Of a DNA stretch of 29,392 nt, positions 7,740 to 20,564 are shown piece after piece. Source of the stretch: a virus; IMG/VR virus record IMGVR_UViG_3300046002_004295, positions 1 to 29,392 of that record. The stretch is one strand, 5' to 3'. The notes beneath the pieces were generated by a model. It was not told where the DNA came from. It saw only the letters and a list, made by a program, of their open reading frames with translations, and searched no databases. The position numbers and the translations under genes are program-made. The number at the start of each line of letters is the position of its first letter. Position 1 is the first letter of the stretch.

Positions 7740-9026
7740 TCAGTATCTATACGTTTCTGGCTTGTATGGACCTGCAACAGTGACGCCAATGTATGCGGCC
7801 TGCTTTTCAGTCATGGTAGTGAGTTCTGCACCAATCTGCTCTAAGTGCAGTCGTGCAACTTTTTCATCTAGATGCTTGGGCAACAAATACAGTCGACCTG
7901 TTTCGTACTTACTGGTGTTGTTATACAGGTCAATCTGTGCCATCACTTGGTTGGTAAAACTGTTTGACATCACAAAGCTGGGATGACCAGTGCCGCAACC
8001 CAAATTAACCAGTCTACCTTCAGCCAACAAGATAATGCGCTTGCCACTGGGGAAGATAACATGATCTACCTGCGGCTTGATGTTCTCCCACTCACAATCC
8101 TTGATGCTGGCAACATCGATCTCTGTGTCAAAGTGACCAATGTTACACACAATAGCATTGTTCTTCATTTGATCCATGTGCTGGCGTGTGATAACATCTA
8201 CGTTGCCTGTGGCAGTTACAAAGATGTCTGCTTTGTCTGCCGCGTATTCCATTGTGACCACACGGAAGCCTTCCATAGCGGCTTGTAAGGCACAGATAGG
8301 ATCTGCTTCAGTGACCCAGACCTGGGCCGAAAGTGCTCGCAAGGCTTGTGCAGAGCCCTTGCCCACGTCACCATAGCCGGCTACTACAGCAACCTTGCCT
8401 GCAATCATAACGTCAGTGGCACGTTTGATAGCATCCACTAGACTTTCTCTGCAACCGTACAGGTTGTCAAACTTGGTTTTGGTCACTGAGTCATTTACGT
8501 TGATAGCAGGCATCCGCAGTGTGCCTGCGGCAATGCGTTCCAACAACTTGTGAATACCTGTTGTGGTTTCTTCTGTAACACCTTTAATGCCAGGGATGAG
8601 ATCAGGGTGCTGATCATGGATATAACCAGTTAAGTCATGTCCGTCATCAAGAATCATGTTTGGTGTCCAACCATCTGGTCCACGCACAGTTTGTTCAATG
8701 CACCACCAGTATTCTGCTTCTGTTTCGCCCTTCCAAGCAAACACAGGAATTCCTTCAACTGCCAATGCCGCGGCTGCTTGATCCTGAGTGCTAAAGATGT
8801 TGCAACTACTCCACCGCACACTGGCGCCAAGTTCAATTAGTGTTTCGACCAGCACAGCCGTTTGAATGGTCATGTGCAAACTGCCCACAATACGTGCACC
8901 AGCGAGTGGTTTGGATCCTGCGTATTCGCGACGAATGGCCATAAGGCCTGGCATCTCGTGTTCAGCAATGGCAATTTCTTTACGACCCCACTCAGCCAGG
9001 CTGATATCTTTAACTTTGTAATCCAT
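7740..9026 (-). CDS. ahcY: S-adenosylhomocysteine hydrolase (adenosylhomocysteinase)
   Basis: Splits S-adenosylhomocysteine, the by-product of methyltransferases, into adenosine and homocysteine, so methylation is not product-inhibited. The 428-residue product has the NAD-binding GYGDVGKG motif in the middle, the NVDVI and HFDTEID segments and the conserved C-terminal YKPETYRY that closes over the neighbouring subunit. The chosen start MDYKVKD is preceded by AAAGGAAAAT and lies 8 bases after the previous stop; an ATG 15 bases upstream is less likely. A full-length AhcY is uncommon on phages and suggests heavy methylation demand or host-cycle rerouting, which is inference. The FkbM methyltransferase at 18568-19302 is one candidate consumer. 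Confidence 0.96.
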
Positions 9027-9034
9027 ATTTTCCT

Positions 9035-9241
9035 TTAACATTCTATGTCTATGTGTCGACCTTTGTCTAAATCTAACCGAAGATTTCTACTAGTTCGATC
9101 TGCAATAATTTGTTCAAATCTACGTTGTTCAATAACACGGCTATAATCTTCAGACCGCTGTTTTTCTAACCGAGACTGATCCAACCGATACTGTTCTTGA
9201 TTGTATTTTATAGCACTTTGTTCGGCTCTTGATATTTGCAT
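9035..9241 (-). CDS. Small charged helical protein, about 68 aa
   Basis: Very rich in Arg, Glu, Gln and Asp, and predicted to form one long helix or coiled coil ([20 protein letters not shown]). No domain recognised. The start at 9241 (MQISRAEQ) is preferred because it overlaps the upstream gene least; an ATG at 9256 is possible. It is followed closely by ahcY. Confidence 0.72.
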
Positions 9242-9246
9242 TTTGA

Positions 9247-9594
9247 TTAATCCCAATACATTTTATTATTTTTTTGAAAATAATAATCTTTTACTAAATC
9301 CATCATGTCGCTGTGATCAACTCTATACTGCTGGTGGTTCACAGATATTCTTACATAACTTGCTGGAGCACTCTCGGGCCTGGGCGTTGTGATTTTGTAA
9401 TGAACAAACCAATGTTGATTTGGCGTTGTAAATGAGCAACCATTGTTGTCAAGCCAATTATCTAGTAGATATTCAAACTGTTCTGCAGACATTGCATACG
9501 TGTGTGCATGACTATCAGTAATACGTATGGTGATGTCAATTGATTGTTTATCTTTAAACAGATAAATTTTTAATGGTTTTTTAAATGGTAGCAT
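9247..9594 (-). CDS. Hypothetical protein, 115 aa
   Basis: No family recognised. It starts MLPFKKPLKIYLFKDKQ and is rich in aromatic residues and histidine, with mostly beta-type patterning in the first half and an amphipathic helix near the end (SDMMDLVKDYYFQKN). It is the first gene after the five-tRNA cluster, 13 bases past tRNA-Gly, so it is probably read from the consensus promoter at 10222-10250 after tRNA processing. Confidence 0.78.
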   Translation of the reverse strand: MLPFKKPLKIYLFKDKQSIDITIRITDSHAHTYAMSAEQFEYLLDNWLDNNGCSFTTPNQHWFVHYKITTPRPESAPASYVRISVNHQQYRVDHSDMMDLVKDYYFQKNNKMYWD

Positions 9595-9607
9595 GTTATT
9601 TATAAAA

Positions 9608-9681
9608 TGGAGCGGGGTAAGAGAATCGAACTCTCAGCATTAGCTTGGAAGGCTAAGGTATTACCACTATACGAACCCCGC
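9608..9681 (-). tRNA. tRNA-Gly (anticodon TCC)
   Basis: Complete cloverleaf with a 7-bp acceptor stem (GCGGGGT), anticodon loop CTTCCAA, T-loop TTCGATT and encoded CCA. Last of five tRNAs read from the promoter at 10222-10250. Confidence 0.97.
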
Positions 9682-9688
9682 ATATACT

Positions 9689-9764
9689 TGGTAGGACGTG
9701 ACGGGATCGAACCGCCGACAGCTTCGGTGTAAGCGAAGAACTCTACCAACTGAGTTAACGTCCT
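9689..9764 (-). tRNA. tRNA-Val (anticodon TAC)
   Basis: Acceptor stem AGGACGT, anticodon stem CTTCG/CGAAG with loop CTTACAC, normal T-loop TTCGATC and encoded CCA. Spaced 7 bases from tRNA-Gly. Confidence 0.97.
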
Positions 9765-9777
9765 AAAAATTCTTTAC

Positions 9778-9851
9778 TGGTCTCGGTAGCAGGAATCGAA
9801 CCTACGCTCGAACGTCCCAAACGTTCAGTGATACCATTTCACCATACCGAG
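9778..9851 (-). tRNA. tRNA-Pro (anticodon TGG)
   Basis: Acceptor CTCGGTA/TACCGAG, anticodon stem GAACG/CGTTC with loop TTTGGGA, T-loop TTCGATT, discriminator A and encoded CCA. The small gene at 9858-10010 lies just upstream. Confidence 0.97.
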
Positions 9852-9857
9852 AAAAAC

Positions 9858-10010
9858 TTAACTGGGAATCATATGAGGCAAATAAGGAACTGCTCTGGGA
9901 CCGTGTAGTTGTTGCAACAACTTGCGAGCCTCTTCTGCAGAGTCAGCACCCACACGAGCCTTAAACTCCTTGCCGTCGGGTCCTCTAACTGTTGCTTCGT
10001 ATAATTTCAT
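9858..10010 (-). CDS. Small protein, 50 aa, inserted between tRNA genes
   Basis: An ATG-to-TAA frame that fills the gap between tRNA-Thr and tRNA-Pro. The product starts MKLYEATVRGPDGKEFKARV, a two-strand beta pattern, then a helix ADSAEEARKLLQQLHG, and ends PYLPHMIPS. The beta-beta-alpha layout and helix resemble the short phage or bacterial proteins often annotated as hypothetical; I cannot name a family. The clean pattern makes it likely real despite its size. No strong ribosome binding site is seen. Confidence 0.75.
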   Translation of the reverse strand: MKLYEATVRGPDGKEFKARVGADSAEEARKLLQQLHGPRAVPYLPHMIPS

Positions 10011-10025
10011 TTTGTAACTTTAAAA

Positions 10026-10100
10026 TGGTGCCCAATGTCTGATTCGAACAGACGACCTACCGCTTACAAGGCGGTTGCTCTACCCCTGAGCCAATCGGGC
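10026..10100 (-). tRNA. tRNA-Thr (anticodon TGT)
   Basis: Acceptor GCCCGAT/ATTGGGC with one G-U pair, anticodon stem ACCGC/GCGGT with loop CTTGTAA, T-loop TTCGAAT and encoded CCA. Confidence 0.97.
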
Positions 10101-10118
10101 GTGTTTCTATTTATATCG

Positions 10119-10204
10119 TGGTGCGAGTGGCCGGAATCGAACCGGCACGCCATTACAGCGGCAGATTTTAAGTCTGCTGTGGCTACCGATTACACCACAC
10201 TCGC
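10119..10204 (-). tRNA. tRNA-Leu (anticodon TAA)
   Basis: Class II tRNA with a long variable arm, acceptor GCGAGTG, anticodon stem GCAGA/TCTGC with loop CTTAAAA, T-loop TTCGATT and encoded CCA. First tRNA after the perfect consensus promoter. Confidence 0.97.
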
Positions 10205-10221
10205 ATTTCTAACTTGTATAT

Positions 10222-10250
10222 ATTATACAATAAATCAAGTTAATTGTCAA
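10222..10250 (-). promoter_or_regulatory. Consensus sigma70 promoter for the five-tRNA cluster
   Basis: Minus strand TTGACA (10245-10250), 17 bp, TATAAT (10222-10227). Both hexamers are perfect matches to the consensus. The predicted start is near 10215, about 10 bases before tRNA-Leu. Confidence 0.93.
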
Positions 10251-10262
10251 CCTCTATAGAGA

Positions 10263-10769
10263 TTAACTGTTCAAGACTTTTGCCACCGAGTTCATCACTG
10301 AGGCAATACGGCCAATGTCACGAAGTTGTTCTACAGAGTAGCCTTCGGTCTTTAATGTTTCGTAATGTGCTTTCACACAGAAGTGACACCGGCCCACAAT
10401 ACTTGCTGCCAAACTAAATGCTTCAAAGTTTGACTTAGTAGTTCCGCCATGTGACGCAATGGCGTTCATGCGTAGCTGTGCTGGCAATCCTTTCAATGCA
10501 GGATCATCAGCCATTTCAACATAGGGATACCATACGTTGTTCTGTGCCATAATGCTTGCGGCTGTCATTGCCGACTCTGCGTGTACTGGAGCATCTGCTA
10601 AAATTACTGATAGGATTTTACCGTTGCCGGTTGCAGCCAATGCAGCCACAGCACAACCCATGGCCACATCTGCATCTAGTGTGCTACGTAACAGTACAGC
10701 ATCAAGATTTAACTTGGTATCTTTGGCATAGCCTGGCAATGCACCTTTTACTGCGTCAATAAAAGCCAT
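10263..10769 (-). CDS. ahpD: AhpD-like alkylhydroperoxidase, 168 aa
   Basis: Reduces AhpC after peroxide turnover and has weak peroxidase activity itself. The AhpD active-site pattern E-X11-C-X2-C-X3-H is exact at E116, C128, C131 and H135 (CHFCVKAH). The protein is all-helical and the length is close to the 170-180 usual for the family. It overlaps the membrane protein gene by one base (TAATG) and is the last gene of an operon that begins with ahpC at 12631. The AhpC here has the three-cysteine layout of AhpC proteins that use AhpD, so the pair should work together. Confidence 0.94.
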   Translation of the reverse strand: MAFIDAVKGALPGYAKDTKLNLDAVLLRSTLDADVAMGCAVAALAATGNGKILSVILADAPVHAESAMTAASIMAQNNVWYPYVEMADDPALKGLPAQLRMNAIASHGGTTKSNFEAFSLAASIVGRCHFCVKAHYETLKTEGYSVEQLRDIGRIASVMNSVAKVLNS

Positions 10770-11458
10770 TATTTTCTATCACCAAACAACTGCAACAAGT
10801 TCAAGAACAAGTTGATAAAGTCCATGTACAAGGTCAGTGCTCCACGCACTTCTGCTGAATCGCTGGTTTCCATACTGAGTTCTTCACGAATCTTCTGTGT
10901 GTCGTAAGCAGTTAAGCCAAGGAAGATGATAATTGCCAATGCTGAAATTACCATCTGCATCACTGTTGATCCGATAAAGATATTCACAATGCTGGCAATG
11001 ACAATAGCAATCAATCCTACAAACATAAACTTGCCCATGCTGTCTAGACTCTGTTTGGTAAAATAGCCATAGCCACTCATCACTCCAAACAAGATGCCTG
11101 CACCCATGAATGCTGACACAATTGATCCCATGGTGAACACAGCAAAGATCATAGCAAAACTTAATCCCATCAAGGCTGCAAAGCCGTGCAAGCATAACTG
11201 TGCTACACCTTTACTAGGATTATTACCTAGCACATAGCTGACACCAAAGATGGCTGCCAGTGGTGAAAAGATCACAATCCATTTCATTACACCTGTAAAA
11301 AAGAATGCCAGCAACTCTGGACTAGAGCCCACAAAGTAACTCACAAACATTGACACAATCACAGCCAGACTCATGTGTCCATACACACGGCCCATTGCAG
11401 AGTTGATTTCACTGGCAGAACGATATGCGATCCCACCTGTATAACTTGTTCCAAACAT
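10769..11458 (-). CDS. Bax inhibitor-1 / YccA-like integral membrane protein, 229 aa
   Basis: About seven hydrophobic segments and a short loop near the C-terminus with TAYDTQKIREEL match the Bax inhibitor-1 family. The N-terminus (GTSYTGGIAYRSASEINSAMGRVYGHM) is also typical of bacterial members. Bacterial YccA blocks FtsH protease; other members are pH-sensitive calcium leak channels. In a phage it could protect proteins from FtsH or alter membrane stress responses, which is inference. It is the third of four genes in the ahpC operon and overlaps ahpD by one base. An AAGGAGAA ribosome binding site precedes the ATG. Confidence 0.92.
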   Translation of the reverse strand: MFGTSYTGGIAYRSASEINSAMGRVYGHMSLAVIVSMFVSYFVGSSPELLAFFFTGVMKWIVIFSPLAAIFGVSYVLGNNPSKGVAQLCLHGFAALMGLSFAMIFAVFTMGSIVSAFMGAGILFGVMSGYGYFTKQSLDSMGKFMFVGLIAIVIASIVNIFIGSTVMQMVISALAIIIFLGLTAYDTQKIREELSMETSDSAEVRGALTLYMDFINLFLNLLQLFGDRK

Positions 11459-11468
11459 AATTTTCTCC

Positions 11469-12092
11469 TTAAAATTTACCTGATGCTAGTACGATTTGAC
11501 AAATATGTTCTAATCGTTCAATGTGTTCAAATGCCCGCCACGGGCTGGTATCTATAGCAACTACACCGTGACCTTTGATGCCCACAATGTCAAAACCAAC
11601 AGTGCCATCTTTTCTTAGCCAGAGATTTTCATGGCAACGATCCGCAAGCTCTTGACTAATTGGAGGCACGTCGCCTACGTTCTTGGCCACTTTTGTATAG
11701 CGACTAAGTTCAGGAAAGCTGTCAGCAAGACTGCTTAGTTCAATACCACGATGCATGGCAGCTACACAGTAGGTAGGGTGTAGATGAACCACTACCCTGA
11801 CATCAGTACTGTGCTGACCCATTGCTCGTTGTAGGCCAAAATGTAGGGGAATTTCTCCACTGGGCTTGAGATTGGCGCTGATGTCAGAGTAAGGCTCTTC
11901 TCTCCATGCTAAACTGCTGACAATCTTGATCTTTTTAAATTGGTCAGGTTGCATGGTCTGCTTACGGACGCCACTGGGTGTGATATAAAAATGATCACGG
12001 TCGTGATGACGAATTGACACATTGCCATCACGACTGGTAATCCAGTTGCGTCTATATGCTTCAACCAAGGTATCGCATATAGTTTCTAACAT
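11469..12092 (-). CDS. Class II aldolase/adducin-family protein, 207 aa
   Basis: Zinc-dependent enzyme of the FucA/AraD/MtnB superfamily. Visible landmarks are GNVSIRHH (23-30), FYITPSGVRK (35-44), KPSGE with the likely catalytic glutamate at 80, the zinc ligands HLH (103-105) and GHG with the third histidine at 175. It could be a sugar-phosphate aldolase, an epimerase or the methylthioribulose-1-phosphate dehydratase of methionine salvage; the sequence alone does not decide. Presence of ahcY in the same genome makes a link to methionine metabolism worth noting. The ATG overlaps the ahpC stop by one base. Confidence 0.9.
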   Translation of the reverse strand: MLETICDTLVEAYRRNWITSRDGNVSIRHHDRDHFYITPSGVRKQTMQPDQFKKIKIVSSLAWREEPYSDISANLKPSGEIPLHFGLQRAMGQHSTDVRVVVHLHPTYCVAAMHRGIELSSLADSFPELSRYTKVAKNVGDVPPISQELADRCHENLWLRKDGTVGFDIVGIKGHGVVAIDTSPWRAFEHIERLEHICQIVLASGKF

Positions 12093-12631
12093 TACAGAGT
12101 CTCGCCACCTACTGTGCGGTTACATGCACACAGTTCACCTGTTTGCAATGCATCCAATACACGAAGTGTTTCTTCTGGGCTACGACCCACGTTCAAGTTG
12201 TTCACAGTAACGTGTTGAATTTCATTGCTTGGATCCACAATGAATGTTGCACGTAATGCCGCACCTGCTGGAGTATAGAACACACCTAGTTGTTCAATCA
12301 AGCTCAACTCACCACGCTGTGTGTCAGCAAACTGATGATGGGTGATCTTCTTTAGATCTGCGTGTGCTGTTTGCCAAGCAACTTTACAAAACTCATTGTC
12401 TGTGCTACCTGTAAGCAATACAGCATCACGATCAGCAAAGTCTGATGCCAACTTGTCATAGGCCACAATCTCTGTTGGGCATACAAACGTAAAATCTTTT
12501 GGATAGTAAACAATTACTTTCCATTTGCCTTCAAACGATTCGTCTGTAATTGTATAGAAAGCATCTTCTGGTTGTCCGGGACGGACACCTGTGACTGCGA
12601 ATGGGGCTAATTTGTCGCCAACTGTTTTCAT
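12092..12631 (-). CDS. ahpC: AhpC-like peroxiredoxin, 179 aa
   Basis: Thioredoxin-fold peroxidase that reduces hydrogen peroxide, organic peroxides and peroxynitrite. The peroxidatic cysteine is C51 in YPKDFTFVCPTEI. The C-terminus carries two more cysteines in GELCACN (C168, C170), the layout of the mycobacterial AhpC that is recharged by AhpD, and ahpD is in this operon. The start MKTVGDKLAP is chosen because GGAGATAAC precedes it; an in-frame upstream ATG at 12715 lies in the promoter. First gene of the ahpC-aldolase-BI1-ahpD operon, driven by the promoter at 12687-12715. Confidence 0.96.
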   Translation of the reverse strand: MKTVGDKLAPFAVTGVRPGQPEDAFYTITDESFEGKWKVIVYYPKDFTFVCPTEIVAYDKLASDFADRDAVLLTGSTDNEFCKVAWQTAHADLKKITHHQFADTQRGELSLIEQLGVFYTPAGAALRATFIVDPSNEIQHVTVNNLNVGRSPEETLRVLDALQTGELCACNRTVGGETL

Positions 12632-12686
12632 GTTATCTCCTTTGTGTTGAATGAAAATGTTTGCAGAAGTTGTTCTGCATGTGTGT

Positions 12687-12715
12687 ATTGTACAGTTATT
12701 TACATGAGAAATCAA
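12687..12715 (-). promoter_or_regulatory. Sigma70-type promoter before ahpC
   Basis: Minus strand TTGATT (12710-12715), 17 bp, TACAAT (12687-12692). The transcript should start near 12680, giving a leader of about 49 bases. The -35 is weaker than in the other promoters. Confidence 0.78.
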
Positions 12716-12779
12716 CCATCTCTCATGGTTTCTACTGAATATATTTCTATGGCTGCCATAGAAAAAATCAATAAAGAAA

Positions 12780-12804
12780 ACCCGCCAAAAGGGGTTGGGT
12801 GGGT
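12780..12804 (-). terminator. Rho-independent terminator after the glycosyltransferase-like gene
   Basis: A 7-bp G/C-rich stem (780-786 with 798-804, one G-U pair) on the minus strand is followed by TTTTCTTTATT. It lies 33 bases after the stop of the gene at 12837-14156 and insulates ahpC. The plus strand also has TATTTT after the stem, so it may work both ways. Confidence 0.8.
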
Positions 12805-12836
12805 ATTTTAAACTAGCTCAGAAGCGTGGGTCTTGC

Positions 12837-14156
12837 TCATTGAGATCTTAACCACTGAATTAGTCGTCGATGCAAATTATAAAGTTTTTTACTAGATCCC
12901 GGATCTTGTTTTAATATTTTTTTTCGTATCGCTCTTCGAAATGTGCCACGTGGTTTTTTGGCGAGTCGAAATGCATCTATAAAATTCGTTTTTAATTCTT
13001 CAATTACCTGTTGCTGAAAAATGTCGCTAAAAAAATGTTTTTTGTTAAAATCCGCTATGCGTCTAATTTCTAGTAAAAATTGATCAAACTCTGGTGCGCC
13101 AAGAGAATTAATTTTATTCATGCTATTGATAATTTTTTCCAGTCTTAGCAAACTATCTGTCTCTTGATCATAACTTTCGTCGATCCAAGGATCAAATGTT
13201 TTAAATCCGTAACTTCTTAGATATTCTAAACTATGCGGGCCTGCTGCCAACACAAATGGATGTCCGCAGGCAATTGGTCTCAGTGTTTTTTCTGTTAGGT
13301 GAATTCTTGAGTCGTCGAATATAGTTTCTGAAACTACACTTATTGCAGTTGAATTAAAATCATCATGATTGTACAGTGCGCTCTCGTTGCTACCACATTG
13401 GTTGTCCTTGAGCAGATCTAATACAGTGATATCTTTGAGTTCAAAATTTATATTTTTAAATTTGTGGTCTCGGTAATGATATCCTTGATCACCTTCGGAC
13501 ATTCTCGATATACTGATTTTACTTTGTTCATGCAACCCATGTTTGACCAGCAACTCCAAAAACTTTAATCTGTATTCTCTAGTGTTGCCCCAGGCACGAT
13601 TGTATATTAGGAATTTTTTACAAACTTGAGATTGCGATGTTAGCCGAGCATCTATCTCGGCAAATCTATACCAGTCACGAGCAATAATTGCATGGCACCA
13701 ATAATAAACTGGTAAAAAATTATTTTGAGAATACTGTTCTAAGTCAACAGAATTTTTTTCAGAATGCAGTAAAATTGCCTGTTCATAAAGAGATCCACAC
13801 AATAATGGTATTGACAATAAATTTTTATCAGCTGCCGCTTGACTGCTTATTTTGGCCACAGTGGGTTCGTTTAACGCAATGTGTAATGACACAGGATCAA
13901 TATTTGTATAAAAATCATAATGCAATGGCTCTTGGTCGTGCGCAACAACTGGAATGTTAATAAAATATGTTAGGCCGTCAACGCCATTGGCGTCAAGAGC
14001 AGTCAATGTATCAAGATCAGTCAATGTATCAAGATCAGTCAATGGTCTAAGGTCAGAAATATCTTTACTACCGTGAGGATAAAATCTGTAAAATGCTGTT
14101 GGAACAGGTATAATTGATTGCACCCAGTGGTACAAATTGTCTAAGGGAATGTTCAT
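12837..14156 (-). CDS. GT10-like (fucosyltransferase-type) glycosyltransferase family protein, 439 aa
   Basis: The C-terminal half has the segment SETIFDDSRIHLTEKTLRPI followed by SLEYLRSYGFKTFDPWID, matching the donor-binding region of GT10 alpha-1,3-fucosyltransferases (TEK, then a G-P-hydrophobic stretch). Two other proteins here, at 23389-24483 and 25109-26041, share the same pattern and are probable paralogues. The N-terminal half carries an 18-bp tandem repeat encoding TLTDLD units (14001-14044). It ends with a basic tail. It could glycosylate phage DNA bases, proteins or host surface sugars; the acceptor is unknown. The terminator at 12780-12804 follows. No promoter is obvious; the tmRNA terminator lies just upstream. 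Confidence 0.72.
   Translation of the reverse strand: MNIPLDNLYHWVQSIIPVPTAFYRFYPHGSKDISDLRPLTDLDTLTDLDTLTALDANGVDGLTYFINIPVVAHDQEPLHYDFYTNIDPVSLHIALNEPTVAKISSQAAADKNLLSIPLLCGSLYEQAILLHSEKNSVDLEQYSQNNFLPVYYWCHAIIARDWYRFAEIDARLTSQSQVCKKFLIYNRAWGNTREYRLKFLELLVKHGLHEQSKISISRMSEGDQGYHYRDHKFKNINFELKDITVLDLLKDNQCGSNESALYNHDDFNSTAISVVSETIFDDSRIHLTEKTLRPIACGHPFVLAAGPHSLEYLRSYGFKTFDPWIDESYDQETDSLLRLEKIINSMNKINSLGAPEFDQFLLEIRRIADFNKKHFFSDIFQQQVIEELKTNFIDAFRLAKKPRGTFRRAIRKKILKQDPGSSKKLYNLHRRLIQWLRSQ
14001..14044. repeat. Tandem repeat, 18-bp unit, 2.4 copies, in-frame in 12837-14156
   Basis: Two perfect copies of AGTCAATGTATCAAGATC (14001-14018 and 14019-14036) and the first 8 bases of a third. The unit is a multiple of three, so copy changes would keep the frame and only alter the count of TLTDLD repeats. 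Confidence 0.9.
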
Positions 14157-14176
14157 GCCATTGGATTTTGTCTTTG

Positions 14177-14216
14177 AATAAAAGGTAATTTAATTCTGTT
14201 ACGAGGATAAATTACC
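14177..14216 (-). terminator. Rho-independent terminator of the tmRNA gene
   Basis: Perfect 9-bp stem GGTAATTTA / TAAATTACC (14208-14216 with 14184-14192), then TTTTATT. It closes the tmRNA coding piece 18 bases after the tag-stop hairpin. Confidence 0.82.
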
Positions 14217-14234
14217 AAAAACCCTAGGCAGTGT

Positions 14235-14318
14235 TTAGACTGCCAATGCTTCCTTGGCTGTACGAGCAGAGAACTTGACGTTCTTACCAGAAACAGTTAC
14301 GGTTTTGTTTACGTTTGC
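14235..14318 (-). other. Predicted tmRNA tag reading frame, 27 codons plus TAA
   Basis: The likely resume codon is GCA at 14318-14316, in a context (AAAAACGTAAAT GCA AAC) like that before the E. coli tag ANDENYALAA. The predicted peptide starts ANVNKTVTVSG and ends ARTAKEALAV before TAA. The stop lies in a hairpin (GGCAGT / ACTGCC), as in other tmRNAs. The resume position is inferred by alignment with known tmRNAs by eye; a few codons either way are possible. Confidence 0.65.
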
Positions 14319-14529
14319 ATTTACGTTTTTTGCTTCTTCGGCCGAGTTTCCCCAACCCTACGGGTTTCACATTCCCGAGCTGTCCACTTCAATACTTCTG
14401 ACCCAATCGATAGCCTGGTCACCCCCACCTAAATATACCTTATACACTTAGGTGGAGGTGGCGGGAGTCGAACCCGCGTCTTGAATCCATTTTTATCGGC
14501 TTCATACAGCAATAACACTTATTTATAAT

Positions 14530-14604
14530 TGGTTGCGGGGGAAGGACTCGAACCTCCGGCTTCCAGGTTATGAGCCTGGCGGTCTACCACTGACGTACCC
14601 CGCG
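14530..14604 (-). tRNA. Initiator-like tRNA-fMet (anticodon CAT)
   Basis: Begins CGCGGGG and ends CCCCGCA, so position 1 (C) and 72 (A) do not pair, the hallmark of bacterial initiator tRNA. Anticodon loop CTCATAA is the initiator loop. The anticodon stem CCAGG/CCTGG keeps two of the three G-C pairs usual for initiators; position 29-41 is A-T. T-loop TTCGAGT, encoded CCA. Confidence 0.92.
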
Positions 14605-14610
14605 ATAAAT

Positions 14611-14700
14611 TGGCGGAAGCGGTGAGATTCGAACTCACGAGGGACGTTAATCCCTGCTGGGTTAGTAATCCAGTGCCATCGGCCACTCGGCCACGCTTCC
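14611..14700 (-). tRNA. tRNA-Ser (anticodon ACT)
   Basis: Class II tRNA with long variable arm, acceptor GGAAGCG/CGCTTCC, discriminator G and encoded CCA. The 7-base loop TTACTAA gives anticodon ACT with U33 and A37 in place. The anticodon stem CTGGA/CCCAG has an A-C mismatch next to the loop. An A34 serine tRNA for AGU is unusual since GCT is normal, and a GCT copy exists at 21013-21102. Confidence 0.88.
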
Positions 14701-14710
14701 TACAGTTGTT

Positions 14711-14944
14711 TTATGGCAAAATTTCGCTGGATAACACACCAGGTTGTGTGGCTACCCAGTTTGTGTATTCAGTTGCTCTTTCAAGCGTGGGCCATGTTCT
14801 TTCAACAGTTCGATTACCGTTTTCGAGTAGTATCTCTGTTGGCCACTCACCAATCCCTTCTCTCCATGTTATCTCTTTGAGAACATTTTTTGCGGCCTCT
14901 GTTAATACGTATCCTGCTTCTACGAGTATTTTTGTTTTATACAT
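14711..14944 (-). CDS. Small hypothetical protein, 77 aa
   Basis: No family recognised. Starts MYKTKILVEAGYVLTEAAKN with beta then helix pattern, and later EYTNWVATQPGV. It lies between the YkuK-like gene and tRNA-Ser(ACT), only 10 bases before the tRNA, so it is probably on the same transcript. AAGGAAAAT precedes the ATG as a ribosome binding site. Confidence 0.8.
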   Translation of the reverse strand: MYKTKILVEAGYVLTEAAKNVLKEITWREGIGEWPTEILLENGNRTVERTWPTLERATEYTNWVATQPGVLSSEILP

Positions 14945-14967
14945 TATATTTTCCTTTAATAAATGTG

Positions 14968-15468
14968 CTAGAATTTTTCATTGATTCTGGCACGATAACT
15001 TGCAGTTGATAATCCTTTAAACCGATCTGCCGCATAACTGGCAGCAAATGCATTGGGTTTAACTGATGGAGTTACATTACACGTTCCTTTAATGTAGCCA
15101 ACAGCCTGTGATATTACACAACTTGACCCATATTTATTGTCTGGATTGATATCTAAATGTACTTCAACATGACGATTTTCTAATACTTCGCCCAATTTCA
15201 AATACAGTTCCGATACTTTGTAAACTTCATTCATCAGACGCATACTTGGACGTGATGTTTTTTGATCAAAGTCCCGTTCACGATGTACTTCACCAAACAG
15301 TTTGCACCCACTGTTACCATTGATATGCACCACAACTGCCAACACATAATCAGCATACCAAACACCGTTTACACGATGCCGCACAGAATCACACCCAAGA
15401 TAAATCTTAGTCTCGGGAGTTTGTTCTTCAATGAACTTTTTTACTTTAACAAGATTTATCTTTTCCAT
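14968..15468 (-). CDS. YkuK/DUF458-like RNase H-fold protein, 166 aa
   Basis: The segment IYLGCDSVRHRVNGVWYADYVLAVV (about 22-46), with the acidic residue in GCDS, and later VEVHLDINPD match the YkuK family, which is predicted to have a ribonuclease H-like fold and is found in bacilli and in phages. No enzymatic activity is firmly established. It follows tRNA-Leu(TAG) and precedes the 77-residue gene. Confidence 0.8.
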   Translation of the reverse strand: MEKINLVKVKKFIEEQTPETKIYLGCDSVRHRVNGVWYADYVLAVVVHINGNSGCKLFGEVHRERDFDQKTSRPSMRLMNEVYKVSELYLKLGEVLENRHVEVHLDINPDNKYGSSCVISQAVGYIKGTCNVTPSVKPNAFAASYAADRFKGLSTASYRARINEKF

Positions 15469-15480
15469 AATATTGTACCT

Positions 15481-15565
15481 TGGTGCGGATGGTGAGACTC
15501 GAACTCACACGCCTTTCGGCGACGGCTTCTAAGACCGTTGCGGCTACCAATTACGCCACATCCGC
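15481..15565 (-). tRNA. tRNA-Leu (anticodon TAG)
   Basis: Class II tRNA, acceptor GCGGATG, anticodon stem ACGGT/GCCGT with loop CTTAGAA, short variable hairpin GCCGAAAGGC, T-loop TTCGAGT and encoded CCA. Confidence 0.97.
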
Positions 15566-15576
15566 ATTGTTTTTAT

Positions 15577-16512
15577 TTATTGACCGAGTTTTGTTGCAAA
15601 TGATTCAAACGTGCGGTCCATGGTTTTGATATTTTGCAAATCTAATTTGTAGTCACCAGACTTACTGACCAGATGTTTTTGAACCAATTCAGGCATGGCC
15701 AGTTTGATTGCTTGATTCAGGTCCTTGACAACTTGATCTCGCACTTCCCGAGGAGTGTCTTTTCTTATAAAGAAACTGTATCCTGCCACTAAGTTTTGAT
15801 AGTCAGAGAATCCGGGACTTGTTAAATTAGGCAAATCTGGAAAGTCAGTTGACTTCTTGTTGTCAAACACAAACAGCGGCTTTAGTGTTCCGGCAGTGAT
15901 GTGTTGATTAATATTACCGTAGCTGATAACAGCAAAGTCAAGTTGATTGTTTAAAATATCCACAATTACCTGAGGTATACTTTTGTAGTTGACCAAAATT
16001 CCTTTGACTTTCATCTTGTCTATGGCCAATGATCCGTAAATGTGAAGAGGACTTCCTGCTACAGTGCTACCATATGTTAGTCCTTTTTGTTTGCCTAGTT
16101 CTGCTAGCTCAGTGAGATTCTTGATGTTTCTTTTGCTGTTAGTAACCAATACCCATTGTGGAGAATAGAAATGTGACACTGGTTCAAAATGCTGTTCGTA
16201 ATCAAATCCTGTTGATGGTTTTGCACTGGCATAGGCAGTTGATGCGTAGAACAAAATTGTATGCCCGTCTGCAGGGGCCGACATCACATGTTGAGACGCT
16301 ATGGCAGCGGCTCCGCCGGGTTTGTTCATTACTACAACGCCAGATTTCCAGATTCCGTCTAGTTTTTCTGCCACAGTTCTTGTGATAAGATCAAGTCCGC
16401 CGCCTGCTCCTGTGGGAACAATTAGTTGTACAGGTTTCTCAGGAAACGACATTGCAGTGGCGCTGACACTTATAACAAGTGCGGTTAATAATGTTGATAC
16501 AATTTTCTTCAT
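15577..16512 (-). CDS. Bug/TctC-family periplasmic solute-binding protein, 311 aa
   Basis: Periplasmic receptor of the tripartite tricarboxylate transporter (TTT) family. It opens with a signal peptide (MKKIVSTLLTALVISVSATA, cleavage near residue 20-22), then FPEKPVQLIVPTGAGGGLD, the typical first strand of Bug proteins, and later QLDFAVISYG. Length is normal (310-325). The family is hugely expanded in Burkholderiales and binds carboxylates, amino acids or nicotinate-like ligands. No TctA/TctB membrane genes are present, so it would have to use host partners or act as a free ligand scavenger. Presence in a phage region is unusual. It sits between tRNA-Leu(TAG) and the PP-loop gene. Confidence 0.93.
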   Translation of the reverse strand: MKKIVSTLLTALVISVSATAMSFPEKPVQLIVPTGAGGGLDLITRTVAEKLDGIWKSGVVVMNKPGGAAAIASQHVMSAPADGHTILFYASTAYASAKPSTGFDYEQHFEPVSHFYSPQWVLVTNSKRNIKNLTELAELGKQKGLTYGSTVAGSPLHIYGSLAIDKMKVKGILVNYKSIPQVIVDILNNQLDFAVISYGNINQHITAGTLKPLFVFDNKKSTDFPDLPNLTSPGFSDYQNLVAGYSFFIRKDTPREVRDQVVKDLNQAIKLAMPELVQKHLVSKSGDYKLDLQNIKTMDRTFESFATKLGQ

Positions 16513-16533
16513 GGTTGCTTTCTTTAAAATTAA

Positions 16534-17667
16534 TTACGATCCAATGTCGTATTCCTTGCTCCAAATAAACGGCAAGTCATATAACATATTTTGCCGTTTA
16601 GTTCGAAATAGATTGTTATGCTTAAAATGATTTACTAGTGTTGTTTGGTTGTATAGATTATATACGCCTTTTAAGAAGTTTGCGGCCTCGGGTCGTCCAG
16701 ATTTTAGATCTTCAACCAGGAATCTACTCTCCGGTGATGCTGTCTCGATGTCTTGCCAAGAACCGGTTAGATTTACATTTGAAATTCCTGCTAAACGTTC
16801 ACTTAGCATTTTCTGCGATCGACTCACTCCATAGTTTAATTCCTGGTGTCGCCCGCAATCTAAACTCATTTGTTCAAATCCTTTGGTGGTTTTTTTATAA
16901 TTGGCCTCAGCCAGCCCGCCATTGTGTAACTTTAGTTGATTTTGTTGAATGTACTTTTTAACATTGTTCTTGAACACATGACTTTGTTTGACAGCCAGCA
17001 CTGGATCTAAAAAGAACGCTTCGATATGTGGCCTATTAAACCCTTGATCTAAAACCATTGCCAGTTGTCTACTAAACCATCGACCGTTTCTATAAACAAG
17101 TCTGGGTTTTTCGTACCCTGTGATGCATTTGAAAGTGTGCCCGCTGTACTTTTGGTATACCGCATCTTCTGTTGTGGTAAATGGAAGATTAAAATATCTA
17201 ACTAACTCTGTTCTCTTGCTATTAAAAATCCAGTCTTCGCTGTTGACAAATGGATTGTGTTTGTTAGGTGCTCGGGCATCCAGCAACGTTATTTCGGTAT
17301 GCGGATCCCAGTGATTCTTTTTTACCCATTCATACGCACTGGTAGGGAACCATGCAAATTCTTCTGAGGCAGCAACAATTATCTCATCTAGATGTATTTT
17401 ATGTTTGGCAAATACATTGTAAATGGTTTGGCTGTCAAACCCACCACTGTAGTATAGCACTAATTTTTCGTATTTGTTCCTGAGCTCAAAGGCTCGATAC
17501 GCCATTAAATTATCAAATGAATCAGTTGATTCTGTAGTCCAGTCAACCTTATCGTATTGATCTTCGTTTAGATAGAACTTGACTGGATGCCCAGTTTCAG
17601 TAGAGTTTATCCAAGCAAGATATACATTGTTATAAGGTTGGTTGTTTACAGTGTAAAAAGCGTTCAT
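16534..17667 (-). CDS. PP-loop ATP-pyrophosphatase-like protein, 377 aa
   Basis: The motif LVLYYSGGFDSQTI (about 69-82) is the PP-loop SGGxDS that binds ATP in asparagine synthetase B, QueC, GuaA and related adenylating enzymes. No glutamine amidotransferase domain precedes it. The C-terminal half is not recognised. Such stand-alone PP-loop proteins are frequent in aquatic phages, with unknown substrates; amide-bond formation or nucleobase modification are possibilities. It lies 16 bases after tRNA-Asn and 21 bases before the solute-binding protein gene. Confidence 0.85.
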   Translation of the reverse strand: MNAFYTVNNQPYNNVYLAWINSTETGHPVKFYLNEDQYDKVDWTTESTDSFDNLMAYRAFELRNKYEKLVLYYSGGFDSQTIYNVFAKHKIHLDEIIVAASEEFAWFPTSAYEWVKKNHWDPHTEITLLDARAPNKHNPFVNSEDWIFNSKRTELVRYFNLPFTTTEDAVYQKYSGHTFKCITGYEKPRLVYRNGRWFSRQLAMVLDQGFNRPHIEAFFLDPVLAVKQSHVFKNNVKKYIQQNQLKLHNGGLAEANYKKTTKGFEQMSLDCGRHQELNYGVSRSQKMLSERLAGISNVNLTGSWQDIETASPESRFLVEDLKSGRPEAANFLKGVYNLYNQTTLVNHFKHNNLFRTKRQNMLYDLPFIWSKEYDIGS

Positions 17668-17683
17668 TTATTTTTATTTAAAT

Positions 17684-17759
17684 TGGCTCCCCAACGTGGG
17701 CTCGAACCACGGACCAACAGATTAACAGTCTGCTACTCTACCGACTGAGCTATTGGGGA
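17684..17759 (-). tRNA. tRNA-Asn (anticodon GTT)
   Basis: Acceptor TCCCCAA/TTGGGGA, anticodon stem GCAGA/TCTGT with loop CTGTTAA, T-loop TTCGAGC, discriminator G and encoded CCA. Confidence 0.97.
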
Positions 17760-17765
17760 ATAATC

Positions 17766-17921
17766 TTACTTGCGTTCTTTAGACGAGAATGATGCAGGTG
17801 TTGCCTGTGCATCAATCATGGCTCTTTTAAATCCGTTGCGATCGTGTTGATCTTTAAACTTTAACAATGCCATCAATGTTTTTGTACGTTTGCTTAGTTT
17901 GAATGCTGATGTTGTTTTCAT
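17766..17921 (-). CDS. Small basic protein, 51 aa
   Basis: ATG-to-TAA frame 6 bases before tRNA-Asn. The product starts MKTTSAFKLSKRTKTLMALL and ends ASFSSKERK; it is basic, helical in the middle and without known relatives. AGGAAAC about 4 bases before the ATG is a plausible ribosome binding site. It diverges from the plus-strand gene at 17973. Confidence 0.72.
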   Translation of the reverse strand: MKTTSAFKLSKRTKTLMALLKFKDQHDRNGFKRAMIDAQATPASFSSKERK

Positions 17922-17972
17922 TTGTTTCCTTTGGGGTATTTATTTGGGTAAAATTGCGATATAAATATCTGT

Positions 17973-18158
17973 ATGCAAACGCAAACACAAGATTTTATTT
18001 CAGTTAGTGGACATCTACAAGTGCATCTGTCACTTAGTGAGTATAACACATCTTATATTTTTGTCAATGATATTTTCAATGATCGGCTAATTATGCGTTA
18101 CTTTAGTGATCATGAAACTGCTGTCAATTGGATCAAGACTCTTAAAGACCACTATTGA
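17973..18158 (+). CDS. Small plus-strand hypothetical protein, 61 aa
   Basis: One of only three plausible plus-strand genes in the window. The product has alternating beta segments and the sequence MRYFSDHETAVNWIKTLKDH, a natural-looking amphipathic helix, so it is probably real. No ribosome binding site is seen. The sequence TATAAATA (a T4-late-like -10) ends a few bases before the ATG, which is too close for a normal leader. It ends 8 bases before the 3' end of tRNA-His on the opposite strand. Confidence 0.6.
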   Translation: MQTQTQDFISVSGHLQVHLSLSEYNTSYIFVNDIFNDRLIMRYFSDHETAVNWIKTLKDHY

Positions 18159-18166
18159 TCATATGC

Positions 18167-18242
18167 TGGGGAGAAGTATGGGAATCGAACCCATATTAAC
18201 GGAATCACAATCCGTGGTGTTGACCTTTACACTAACTACTCC
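18167..18242 (-). tRNA. tRNA-His (anticodon GTG)
   Basis: Has the extra 5' G(-1) opposite C73 that marks tRNA-His. Acceptor GAGTAGT/ACTTCTC contains one T-T mismatch. Anticodon stem ACGGA/TCCGT with loop TTGTGAT, T-loop TTCGATT, encoded CCA. Confidence 0.95.
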
Positions 18243-18247
18243 GTAAT

Positions 18248-18322
18248 TGGTCTCGCTTGCAAGAATCGAACTCACATTCAAGAGGTAGAAGCTCTTTGTA
18301 TTATCCATTATACTAAAGCGAG
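18248..18322 (-). tRNA. tRNA-Arg (anticodon TCT)
   Basis: Acceptor CTCGCTT/AAGCGAG, anticodon stem AAGAG/CTCTT with loop CTTCTAC, T-loop TTCGATT, encoded CCA. Reads AGA/AGG. Confidence 0.97.
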
Positions 18323-18324
18323 AA

Positions 18325-18402
18325 TGGCAGAGGGTACTGGATTCGAACCAGTGATCATGGAGTCAAAGTCCAATGCTTTAGGCCAAACTAAGCTAACCCC
18401 CA
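18325..18402 (-). tRNA. tRNA-Gln (anticodon TTG)
   Basis: Acceptor TGGGGGT/ACCCTCT with position 1-72 unpaired (T-T), in line with the weak first pair that glutaminyl-tRNA synthetase opens. Anticodon loop CTTTGAC, T-loop TTCGAAT, discriminator G, encoded CCA. Confidence 0.95.
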
Positions 18403-18413
18403 GTAATAATTGT

Positions 18414-18487
18414 TGGAGCGGGATAGGAGAATCGAACTCCTGACTAAACCTTGGCAAGGTTTCGTTTGACCATTAAACTAATCCCGC
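18414..18487 (-). tRNA. tRNA-Gly (anticodon GCC)
   Basis: Acceptor GCGGGAT/ATCCCGC, anticodon stem AAACC/GGTTT with loop TTGCCAA, T-loop TTCGATT, encoded CCA. Complements the TCC isoacceptor at 9608. Confidence 0.97.
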
Positions 18488-18490
18488 ATG

Positions 18491-18565
18491 TGGTGGTGAT
18501 GAGTAGAATCGAACTACCACTGGACTCCGTATGAAGGAGGCGCACTACCGTTATGCTACATCACC
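18491..18565 (-). tRNA. tRNA with anticodon CAT (elongator Met, or Ile after lysidine modification)
   Basis: Acceptor GGTGATG/CATCACC with a paired first position, so not an initiator. Anticodon loop TTCATAC, T-loop TTCGATT, encoded CCA. Met and modified Ile tRNAs cannot be separated with confidence here. Confidence 0.93.
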
Positions 18566-18567
18566 GA

Positions 18568-19302
18568 TCAGTCGAAGTAGTATTCAAGATCAGAGAGACC
18601 AGCCACGTTAGAATAATCTAAGCCGTGTATGTAAGACTCGCGACGCAAGTCATTTCCGGGAACCAAGTCTCGGCGAATGTGTGTCAATTCCATACATCCA
18701 AAAACGCCATCAGTGTCATAGCCCACGTGATTGTTGCCGTGTACGTGTACAATGGCATAGTGCTCTTGCCACCGCTCCACAGCCTGTTGCCATTGTTTGC
18801 TACGATTGGCACAGTTGTGCCATTCCATTGCAACGCCCACAATACGGTCGCGATGTTGTACGATACTTTCAATCAAACTGTATTCACCACCTTCAATGTC
18901 CATCTTGATGAACACCTGGTCTACGCCCATTCTGTCTAGTGCTCGTGCAAAGTTTTCTGGCCCAATGAACTCTGGCCAATGTTTTACGTTACCTTGAAAG
19001 AATTCATCGTACATGGCTCGAATATCCAAGTGTCCACGAACAGGCGTATTGATGCTGATACGCATGGTATCTCTGGTGACACTGGCGTCATACATCTGAA
19101 TTGGATCCTGTGGCTTGAGATCATGCCAGTCTTGGTCAAATGTAAAATCGTCACCTAGACCAAAACTTAGTAGGCCCTGTGCTTGTTCCACTGCTGAACG
19201 TGGCACAATGTAGCCGCCATCCATTTTTCCACCTAATCTAATTAGGTCAGGCACTGCAACGGGGCAGAGCCAATGTAGTTCTTGGGGTAGTTTAATTTTC
19301 AT
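18568..19302 (-). CDS. FkbM-family SAM-dependent methyltransferase, 244 aa
   Basis: The central motif FIKMDIEGGEYSLIESI is the FkbM methyltransferase signature (acidic D-x-E-G-x-E after a strand), with LLSFGLGDDFTFDQDW upstream as the likely SAM-binding region. FkbM enzymes O-methylate sugars and secondary metabolites. The gene runs between tRNA-Lys and tRNA-Met (only 2 bases from the latter), preceded by the hairpin element 19330-19424. Its product SAH would be cleared by AhcY. A lipopolysaccharide or phage-glycan target fits with the glycosyltransferase-like genes but is inference. Confidence 0.87.
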   Translation of the reverse strand: MKIKLPQELHWLCPVAVPDLIRLGGKMDGGYIVPRSAVEQAQGLLSFGLGDDFTFDQDWHDLKPQDPIQMYDASVTRDTMRISINTPVRGHLDIRAMYDEFFQGNVKHWPEFIGPENFARALDRMGVDQVFIKMDIEGGEYSLIESIVQHRDRIVGVAMEWHNCANRSKQWQQAVERWQEHYAIVHVHGNNHVGYDTDGVFGCMELTHIRRDLVPGNDLRRESYIHGLDYSNVAGLSDLEYYFD

Positions 19303-19329
19303 AATTTTATTTATTGACTGGTTTTACAC

Positions 19330-19424
19330 ACCATATAAAAGCACACTATATGCGCCCTGGTTGTTAAGCGTCACTAACAGCCTGCAACCACGCAGGGTAG
19401 CCGTGTAATGTGCTTTTATATGGT
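19330..19424. ncRNA. Candidate structured RNA element with 16-bp terminal stem
   Basis: Arms 19330-19345 (ACCATATAAAAGCACA) and 19409-19424 are perfect complements over 16 bp. Inside, CCCTG/CAGGG, GGTTG/CAACC and GTTA/TAAC can stack into one long bulged hairpin. The right arm contains the CCA end of tRNA-Lys. Read on the minus strand it lies between tRNA-Lys and the FkbM gene. It could be an RNase III-type processing site, a leader regulator or an independent small RNA. Confidence 0.55.
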
Positions 19425-19494
19425 AGGGGTGCAGGGGAACGATCCCTGTTTTACGGATTAAAAGTCCGTTACTTCACCTTAAAGTTTCACCCCC
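19421..19494 (-). tRNA. tRNA-Lys (anticodon TTT) with atypical T-loop
   Basis: Acceptor GGGGGTG/CACCCCT, anticodon stem ACGGA/TCCGT with loop CTTTTAA, encoded CCA. The T-loop reads ATCGTTC where TTCGANN is expected, so 54 and 58 are A and T, not T and A. Confidence 0.93.
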
Positions 19495-19616
19495 AATGGT
19501 TCTTGTTTTTGTGCTCGTCGCAAAGCCTTGTTGGTCTTGCGATGCGCACCTGCTTTGCGAAATAGTGCAAGACGAACGAAGCAGTTACGTTCGCGCACGA
19601 TCGGTTTATGTTTCAT
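19479..19616 (-). CDS. Small very basic protein, 45 aa, overlapping tRNA-Lys
   Basis: Frame starting MKHKPIVRERNCFVRLALFR, then KAGAHRKTNKALRRAQKQ. The pattern RxRNxFVxxALFRKAGAH recalls short conserved proteins I have seen in proteobacterial phages and plasmids, function unknown. The last 5 codons and stop overlap the first 16 bases of tRNA-Lys on the same strand. GGAAATT precedes the ATG. Confidence 0.65.
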   Translation of the reverse strand: MKHKPIVRERNCFVRLALFRKAGAHRKTNKALRRAQKQEPLGVKL

Positions 19617-19635
19617 ACAATTTCCTTTTATAAAA

Positions 19636-19709
19636 TGGTGGAGGATGCGAGAGTCGAACTCGCGAATGAGCCTTGCAAAGGCACCGGTTTCCCACTAGCC
19701 TAATCCCCC
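19636..19709 (-). tRNA. tRNA-Ala (anticodon TGC)
   Basis: Acceptor GGGGGAT/ATCCTCC, anticodon stem GTGCC/GGCTC with one T-T mismatch and loop TTTGCAA, T-loop TTCGACT, encoded CCA. Confidence 0.96.
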
Positions 19710-19711
19710 AA

Positions 19712-19912
19712 TATGCTCTGCATCCCCCGGCGGTAATTATAGAGTATCAAGATATGACGCTATCATACCCATCACACACTCCTTCCACCCGCTTCCCGGC
19801 AGGGACCGTTCTCGCATTGCCAGCGGCCTTTGGGTTCGAAGACTACCACCCGTAGCTGTCACACTACTTCTCATCGTCAGGGTCTGACTATCCGGAGACA
19901 CCCGGAACGTTC
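19712..19912. other. G+C-richer 200-base gap between tRNA-Tyr and tRNA-Ala
   Basis: More G+C-rich than the surroundings and without a clear tRNA or conserved gene. It contains several short complementary G/C-rich segments on the minus strand. A 45-codon frame (19737-19874) covers most of it. Whether it is a small gene or a structured RNA cannot be settled by eye. Confidence 0.4.
19737..19874 (-). CDS. Possible small protein, 45 aa
   Basis: ATG frame with product starting MRSSVTATGGSLRTQRPLAM and ending MGMIASYLDTL. The frame stays open upstream into tRNA-Tyr, and no ribosome binding site is visible, so coding is uncertain. The C-terminal helix-like end and sensible residue choice make it worth keeping. 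Codon use is more G+C-rich than in neighbours. Confidence 0.35.
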   Translation of the reverse strand: MRSSVTATGGSLRTQRPLAMRERSLPGSGWKECVMGMIASYLDTL

Positions 19913-19996
19913 TGGTGGAGATGATAGGGATCGAACCTATTGTGACTAAGTCGGAGGATTTACAGTCCCCTGCCATACCATTACGGCGGCATCTCC
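19913..19996 (-). tRNA. tRNA-Tyr (anticodon GTA)
   Basis: Class II tRNA with variable arm, acceptor GGAGATG/CATCTCC, anticodon stem GGGGA/TCCTC with loop CTGTAAA, T-loop TTCGATC, encoded CCA. Confidence 0.97.
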
Positions 19997-20001
19997 ATGT
20001 G

Positions 20002-20076
20002 TGGTACTCGATAGCGGAGTCGAACCGCTCTTGCCTGGATGAAAACCAGATGTCCTAACCGATAGACGAATCGAGC
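20002..20076 (-). tRNA. tRNA-Glu (anticodon TTC)
   Basis: Acceptor GCTCGAT/ATCGAGT, anticodon stem TCTGG/CCAGG with loop TTTTCAT, T-loop TTCGACT, encoded CCA. The hairpin element 20085-20149 lies just upstream. Confidence 0.97.
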
Positions 20077-20084
20077 AAAAAGAG

Positions 20085-20149
20085 GAGAGCCACGGTTGCA
20101 GGACCTAGTGTCTCGTTGCCGAGAGAAGTGTCCAGGCGATGCGGCTCTC
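20085..20149. ncRNA. Structured 65-nt element between tRNA-Asp and tRNA-Glu
   Basis: On the minus strand the ends GAGAGCC and GGCTCTC pair over 7 bp. An inner GGAC/GTCC helix and an apical TCTCG-GCAA-CGAGA hairpin with a GNRA tetraloop sit inside, and CTCTTTTT follows. The size and the 7-bp terminal stem recall a tRNA, but there is no T-loop, anticodon arm or CCA. It could be a small RNA, a degenerated tRNA or a processing or attenuation element. Confidence 0.55.
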
Positions 20150-20155
20150 AAAACT

Positions 20156-20230
20156 TGGCGGTCTGTGGGGGAATCGAACCCCCGTAAGTGGATAGACAAT
20201 CCACAGTAATAACCTCTATACGAACAGACC
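20156..20230 (-). tRNA. tRNA-Asp (anticodon GTC)
   Basis: Acceptor GGTCTGT/ACAGACC, anticodon stem GTGGA/TCCAC with loop TTGTCTA, T-loop TTCGATT, discriminator G, encoded CCA. First tRNA after the long leader 20231-20513. Confidence 0.97.
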
Positions 20231-20238
20231 AAAATCTA

Positions 20239-20551: not shown

Positions 20552-20564
20552 TTTGTTTTGCAAA

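Follow-up and report, generated by a model that had tools for sequence, protein, structure and literature searches.

tmRNA genes have been reported in 402 of 18,146 phages, and 53 of 133 unique phage tmRNA structures have been called two-piece (PMC9004378); the phage-borne permuted tmRNA is thus, as a kind, already known. The two-piece tmRNAs of that survey, including that of Methylophilales phage Melnitz, are phage-borne and permuted like the one described here, but Melnitz belongs to a different phage group, and the tag described below is not mentioned in the available part of the paper. Huge phages harboring both a tmRNA and SmpB have been published (PMC7162821), and the roles proposed for phage tmRNA are host-protein recycling and host-state sensing (PMC9004378, PMC7162821). 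The tmRNA of mycobacteriophage DS6A is also phage-borne; it is, however, tRNA-like only, lacks a tag, and is a reported inhibitor of the endogenous tmRNA (PMC4131195, PMC11915505).

Some jumbo phages carry a tmRNA, Clp genes, or both. For the Sinorhizobium jumbo phage AP-J-162, one tmRNA and six Clp ORFs were reported, and no link between them is drawn in the accessible part of the report (PMC11242549). Bacillus phage G, listed with an ssrA gene (PMC4131195), has ClpX- and ClpP-like genes and a ClpX loop reading RKH, and gave no match to the Rfam model RF04321. Sinorhizobium phage Phosso harbors a permuted tmRNA (an RF04321 match that ARAGORN missed) together with a ClpX reading RKN; its tag, ANDNVSTKVALAA, is of the ordinary -ALAA type, unlike that of the DNA analyzed here, which makes up an entire IMG/VR virus record (29,392 bases; hereafter, the window). 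A permuted tmRNA is also present in Stenotrophomonas phage Mendera, unannotated in the stretch consulted. The model for a private degron is the ssrA of Mesoplasma florum, whose 27-residue tmRNA tag is read by the organism's own protease Lon; that pair is bacterial, uses Lon instead of Clp and, to our knowledge, is unrelated in sequence to the phage tag.

The window minus strand from 14511 to 14235 is a circularly permuted tmRNA gene (Rfam tmRNA_permuted RF04321, 96.2 bits, E 9.6e-18, gathering score 47, match spanning the full model 1-213), and ARAGORN independently called a permuted tmRNA at 14542-14144 (-). A search among subtypes gave beta_tmRNA (RF01850) as the best match, with 70.6 bits. 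Compared to the betaproteobacterial-type permuted tmRNA (RF04321; RF01850), the window gene is alike in gene order, acceptor stem, spacer, T-arm, and resume and stop codons; it differs in scoring below the RF01850 gathering score of 84, in small insertions in the tRNA-like domain, and in a tag that is 27 residues long, basic, and ends in -LAV. A second RF04321 match at 19719-19940 was rejected, being below the cut-off (22.7 bits) and overlying tRNA genes. The features of the locus are as follows.

14611..14700, minus strand: tRNA-Ser (act), upstream neighbor in the same tRNA run (ARAGORN, Rfam)
14530..14604, minus strand: tRNA-Met (cat), immediately 5' of the tmRNA (ARAGORN, Rfam)
14451..14511, minus strand: acceptor (tRNA-like 3') piece, 5' end approximate (sequence, Rfam)
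14477-14461, minus strand: T-arm GCGGG-TTCGACT-CCCGC (sequence)
14460-14454, minus strand: acceptor 3' strand CACCTCC (sequence)
14453-14451, minus strand: A73-C74-C75 (ACC) (sequence)
14427..14450, minus strand: spacer between the two pieces, 24 bases, 18 of them A/T, excision predicted (sequence)
14420..14426, minus strand: acceptor 5' strand GGGGGTG, the 5' end of the coding piece (sequence, Rfam, acceptor-stem comparison)
14319..14419, minus strand: tRNA-like D-region and predicted pseudoknot-1 region, up to the resume codon (Rfam alignment)
14238..14318, minus strand: tag reading frame, 27 codons, ANVNKTVTVSGKNVKFSARTAKEALAV (ARAGORN and comparative reading)
14235..14237, minus strand: tag stop codon TAA (sequence, Rfam)
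14228..14243, minus strand: short helix GCAGT/ACTGC around the stop codon (pairing across 75 loci)
14180..14216, minus strand: inverted repeat at the 3' end, GGTAATTTA/TAAATTACC, followed by TTTTATT (sequence; conserved block nearby in relatives)

An earlier sequence-only reading had placed the acceptor half 5' of the coding half on the minus strand and had paired GGGGGTG with CACCTCC across a 24-base AT-rich spacer. Sequence and full-model match agree with both points, with seven of seven pairs at the positions claimed, and the covariance search that it had proposed as a check returned the RF04321 match given above, with ARAGORN concurring. Its attribution to a phage also stands, since the window is a virus record and its longer relatives are T4-type; the surprise that it implied does not, such phage tmRNAs having already been published. 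It did not include the tag peptide (14318-14238, stop 14237-14235), which is the unusual part of the gene.

The 3' end of tRNA-Met and the start of the Rfam tmRNA match are separated by 18 bases. The gene does not encode the last A of CCA, having a T at 14450, and the seven pairs of the acceptor stem include G3-U70. The tag frame has an Ala resume codon, an in-frame stop, and a hydrophobic end (ARAGORN, comparative reading), and the region 14319..14419 that precedes it is strongly divergent in the alignment of relatives. As in other tmRNAs, the stop codon is enclosed by a short helix, which has five of five pairs in 52 of 75 loci and four of five in the remaining 23 (best of five offsets, no shuffle control). 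The inverted repeat at 14180..14216 is possibly a terminator or a pseudoknot. It is absent from the list given by a consensus promoter/terminator scan, in which nothing rose above shuffled sequences and 14244-14227 was listed instead (one found vs. 1.2 expected in shuffles).

The acceptor stem was compared across the 75 loci of the tag family described below (window included, some loci from one contig) and was located in 71 of them; none was located in L123, L142, L148, and L161. All 11 distinct stems are fully paired (7/7), a result partly selected by the search itself, which demanded a leading GG and at least six pairs and kept the best-scoring candidate. G3-U70, which the search did not demand, is present in all 11 distinct stems and in all 71 stems located. 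Positions 4-7 vary on both sides with pairing kept, and swapping the partners among stems left a paired fraction of 0.737 (sd 0.049, maximum 0.896 in 2000 swaps).

We regard it as very probable that this is a working two-piece tmRNA of a T4-related jumbo phage, processed by the host, charged with alanine via G3-U70, served by host SmpB, and adding a lineage-specific, selected tag. What has been observed is the gene anatomy, the family of tags, the pattern of selection, the co-variation of the acceptor stems, and the gene content of relatives; processing, charging, and tagging are taken over from known two-piece tmRNAs. The gene would be transcribed at the end of the tRNA run, and host tRNA-processing enzymes would trim the transcript to two RNAs, one acceptor and one coding, which pair through the acceptor stem. 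The host alanyl-tRNA synthetase would charge the acceptor RNA with alanine through G3-U70, host SmpB would load the tmRNA onto stalled ribosomes, and the ribosome would resume on the phage message, appending the 27-residue lineage-specific tag. Dependence on host SmpB is likely, since a SmpB gene was found in none of the 31 related records searched, many of them fragments.

The tag ANVNKTVTVSGKNVKFSARTAKEALAV is a member of a family of basic tags of 27-31 residues, nearly all ending in -[LF]AV. A degenerate pattern for the middle of the tag retrieved 57 viral loci, and a tag frame of 27-29 residues is readable in all of them. Among these, ARAGORN itself called a tmRNA at four of the five loci found earlier and at 27 of the 52 newly found ones, and RF04321 scored above its cut-off in all of the 50 records, out of the 57, that were searched. 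With the loci found otherwise, the family comprises 75 loci, whose tags have 44 different DNA sequences and give 38 peptides, each 27-31 residues in length. In the core VTVSGKNVKFSAR, the pooled pN/pS is 0.19 (44 distinct DNAs), and it is 0.30 in a tag-independent sample obtained via the neighboring exonuclease gene (17 distinct DNAs, 19 loci), vs. 0.99 in the tag outside the core; the pairs compared are not independent, so these values are descriptive and not a test, and 0.30 is the fairer core figure, since the first pattern had part of the core built in. By this measure the core is under amino-acid selection. Neither the tag family, nor its selection, nor tag swapping, nor a phage-Clp link was found described in the open-access literature, where the string GKNVKFSAR also had no mention in the part searched.

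A scan of the genomes of 84,980 species with the single pattern GK[NS]VKFSA, which covers only the core and contigs of at least 3,000 bases and could miss variants, gave seven matches, all of them in ordinary proteins and none in a tag. That the tag may differ from the host's own is suggested by these zero tags in seven matches of a one-pattern scan. No tag match was obtained by tblastn in cultured phages (one family member as a query of 27-29 residues) or in plasmids (the window's tag as query), both searches being without a positive control.

For a sample of viral tags independent of this family, a pattern for the permuted acceptor was used, which at least 119 IMG/VR stretches match. Among the matches listed, ARAGORN gave permuted tags in 101 of the 119 stretches, corresponding to 55 distinct tags, of which 12 have 22 or more residues and for which the commonest length is 10 residues, also the commonest tmRNA tag length in the literature (PMC11915505). 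Several viral permuted tmRNAs (L004, L017, L055, L057, L060, L107, and others) bear long tags unrelated to the family, such as ANAFKPEVTVPMSVFADQELVAA, ANDKALDNVSFVNFGEQKDVRLSEDFALAA, and VNAKADTFDFSAMSFTGNTVRGAANDSRFALAA, the last of which finishes like a complete ordinary tag.

Concerning the carriers, protein-gene DNA is common to the window and 49 of the 57 tag-pattern loci; none was detected at that sensitivity in the other eight (1.4-9.3 kb). One contig (L006) is 99.985% identical to the window over 13,647 bases, and related records reach 344-347 kb, a length from which the long ones appear to be nearly complete. Judging from their sequences, the viruses that carry the tag belong to the T4-related jumbo phages: six of 31 related records have a capsid protein of the gp23 family, the window's fragment not being one of the six. 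The capsid protein of one long record (G002) has as nearest cultured relatives Vibrio phage 2.275.O (65.9%) and the PA5oct group (65.1%), and PA5oct is also the nearest cultured phage for the window exonuclease (51.1%). The beta-type RNA and a TctC-family protein point to a Burkholderiales host, but only as a hint.

The neighboring exonuclease gene was also used to follow the tag among relatives, 80 of at least 567 confirmed loci being kept from the exonuclease query. Of 107 loci with at least 250 exonuclease residues, some of which repeat a contig, a tag could be read in 53 (long in 41, short in 11, and of another kind in one) but not in the remaining 54, many of which are short pieces. In the exonuclease tree of 45 rows (midpoint root for drawing only), a group of 40 rows contains 33 long and seven short tags, and the remaining five rows are four short tags and L030. 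The long/short label requires four changes on this tree, at least two of them forced by starred branches. The short -ALAA tags in seven of the 40 rows imply that the long tag is not indispensable. L030 is 91% identical to the window along 226 bases that run from the acceptor piece into the first part of the tag, after which it continues with a different tag. The tree places L075 next to L030 as a close sister, and aligned stretches of their DNA are 84-88% identical; their tRNA half and spacer are nearly identical, whereas the message half, including the pseudoknot region, differs. The switch in L030 and the difference between these sisters indicate that tag and RNA scaffold evolve separately. 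In a manual alignment, the long tag looks like an insertion into an ordinary one (ANAS-NDEV-FALAA vs. ANAS-TGEV-(18 residues)-FAV).

The window, a 29 kb fragment, has no Clp gene. Two long relatives of 340-344 kb (G002 and G018) both have genes for a ClpX of 398-402 aa (with a C4 zinc finger, AAA_2, and D2-small), for a ClpA-like protein of 757-759 aa (with Clp_N, AAA, and D2-small), and for ClpP and ClpS. In these two records the Clp gene nearest to the tmRNA is ClpA, at a distance of about 52-60 kb; ClpX and ClpP are over 100 kb away. Of 21 records, two had ClpP and the other 19 were shorter pieces; of 12 long records with ClpX, 11 had it (in G051 as a divergent copy alone; G060 has none); G052 and G054 have both ClpX and ClpP. 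In nine of these 12, a divergent ClpP-like protein (e.g., L267 5657-6229) accompanies the high-scoring ClpP, which stands without it in G018. The ClpP-like gene of phage G is annotated as a capsid-maturation protease, and the divergent copy could be one too. As for adaptors, ClpS was present in two and SspB in none of the five records searched.

In E. coli ClpX, T199, V202, R228, and H230 are reported among the residues contacting the ssrA end. Of 236 confirmed viral ClpX sequences, 80 were compared at the tag-reading loop, which is RKH in 41 of them and different in the other 39. An RF04321 search of 19 of these 80 contigs (96-364 kb) gave nine matches, seven above the cut-off and two below it (G057, 38.3 bits; G064, 22.5 bits). 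Ten long records combine ClpX with a readable tag, G002 and G018 included and G064 left out. Those with long -LAV tags read RKV (G002), RKQ (G018), RKS (G052), and RKT (G054, whose tag is of the window's subtype); those with short -AA tags read RKS (G051), RKN (G053), and RKH (G055, G056, G057, and G058). The H230 equivalent is thus changed in all four long-tag records and also in two short-tag ones. Long tags in four of six non-RKH vs. zero of four RKH records give a one-sided Fisher value of 15/210 = 0.07, or 15/126 = 0.12 without G057, both calculated by hand and ignoring shared descent. The link between ClpX residue 230 and tag type is suggestive only, and weak, because G051, G053, and the cultured Phosso (RKN) have ordinary -ALAA tags.

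It is quite possible that rescued peptides bearing this tag are handed to ClpX or ClpA of the phage, working with its ClpP. These enzymes would degrade the tagged peptides in a tagging-proteolysis line partly separate from that of the host. More tentatively, the full arrangement might be a jumbo-phage tag-and-degrade line, in which a virus-only tag (basic core, -[LF]AV) would be recognized better by the phage's Clp unfoldases, altered at a residue that reads the -AA end, than by those of the host, and in which recombination in the message half of the permuted gene would swap the tag as a module. A conserved tag that these searches encountered in viruses alone, its exchange among close relatives, and the Clp genes of long relatives make the purpose of a viral tmRNA testable and, if the private degron were true, the tag would be a new orthogonal degradation tag.

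An unlikely scenario is that ClpXP/ClpAP of the host would read the tag as an ordinary degron, its middle a neutral linker and its -LAV end tolerated, the phage tmRNA merely boosting host rescue. The ends remain hydrophobic, Ala being the penultimate residue ([LF]AV), relatives have plain -ALAA tags, and -LAV could be an ordinary weak degron, since -AAV tags are still destabilizing in other bacteria, albeit less than -LAA (PMC9097571, PMC5732988). A core pN/pS of 0.19-0.30, however, is not what one would expect of a neutral linker. Moreover, the net charge lies between +2 and +5 in the 38 long peptides, whereas seven short tags from relatives have -1 or -2, and, among the matches listed, only three of the 55 distinct viral tags of the independent sample end in -AV, all three of the long-tag family.

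Even less probable, in our opinion, is that the tag is not a degron and that rescued peptides are instead stabilized by it, sent elsewhere, or made functional, for example as an RNA-binding or regulatory peptide set free in the course of infection. The basic, conserved middle and the altered end would fit such a role, as would the core variants, which are mostly conservative (V to I/F, N to S/G, K to R), with L235 departing more. The hydrophobic end is nevertheless kept in all 38 long peptides (24 LAV, 13 FAV, and one LAA), and the long records of the lineage keep Clp genes. Furthermore, in each of 21 related records the tag has a single match, the tmRNA itself, and a search of solved structures with the tag gave repeat-protein noise only, neither of which favors a peptide with a function of its own.

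It is very improbable that the gene serves as a decoy to titrate SmpB of the host, or that it was acquired from a host genome and is decaying: the DS6A form, with little beyond the tRNA-like domain, is reported to inhibit the endogenous tmRNA (PMC11915505, PMC4131195), and the window's tRNA-like helices have four non-standard pairs in the RF04321 alignment, but the full tag frame is under selection, and the co-varying stems, the constant G3-U70, and the stop-codon helix are found lineage-wide. We give equally little credence to RNA structure, rather than the peptide, as the cause of conservation in the tag region, since, although some stretches of the core are strongly conserved at the nucleotide level (AAG and TTC codons, for example), synonymous changes per site exceed amino-acid changes there, and L030 and the short-tag relatives retain the tRNA half with another message.

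As for the rest of the window, ARAGORN found 25 tRNA genes at 9608-22683, on one strand over about 13 kb and covering all 20 amino-acid types. Host-type metabolic genes lie at 7740-12715 and 15577-16512 (-); the set consists of S-adenosylhomocysteinase, a Bax-inhibitor-1-like membrane protein, a class II aldolase, a peroxiredoxin, a carboxymuconolactone decarboxylase-like protein, and a TctC substrate-binding protein. Three genes, at 12837-14156 (-), 23335-24483 (+), and 25109-26041 (+), look like paralogues by eye; their proteins, none with a Pfam match, have a common stretch (LTEKTLRPIACGHPFV / LSEKIFRALVTPAPWT / VTEKTLMALYAGTIPM).
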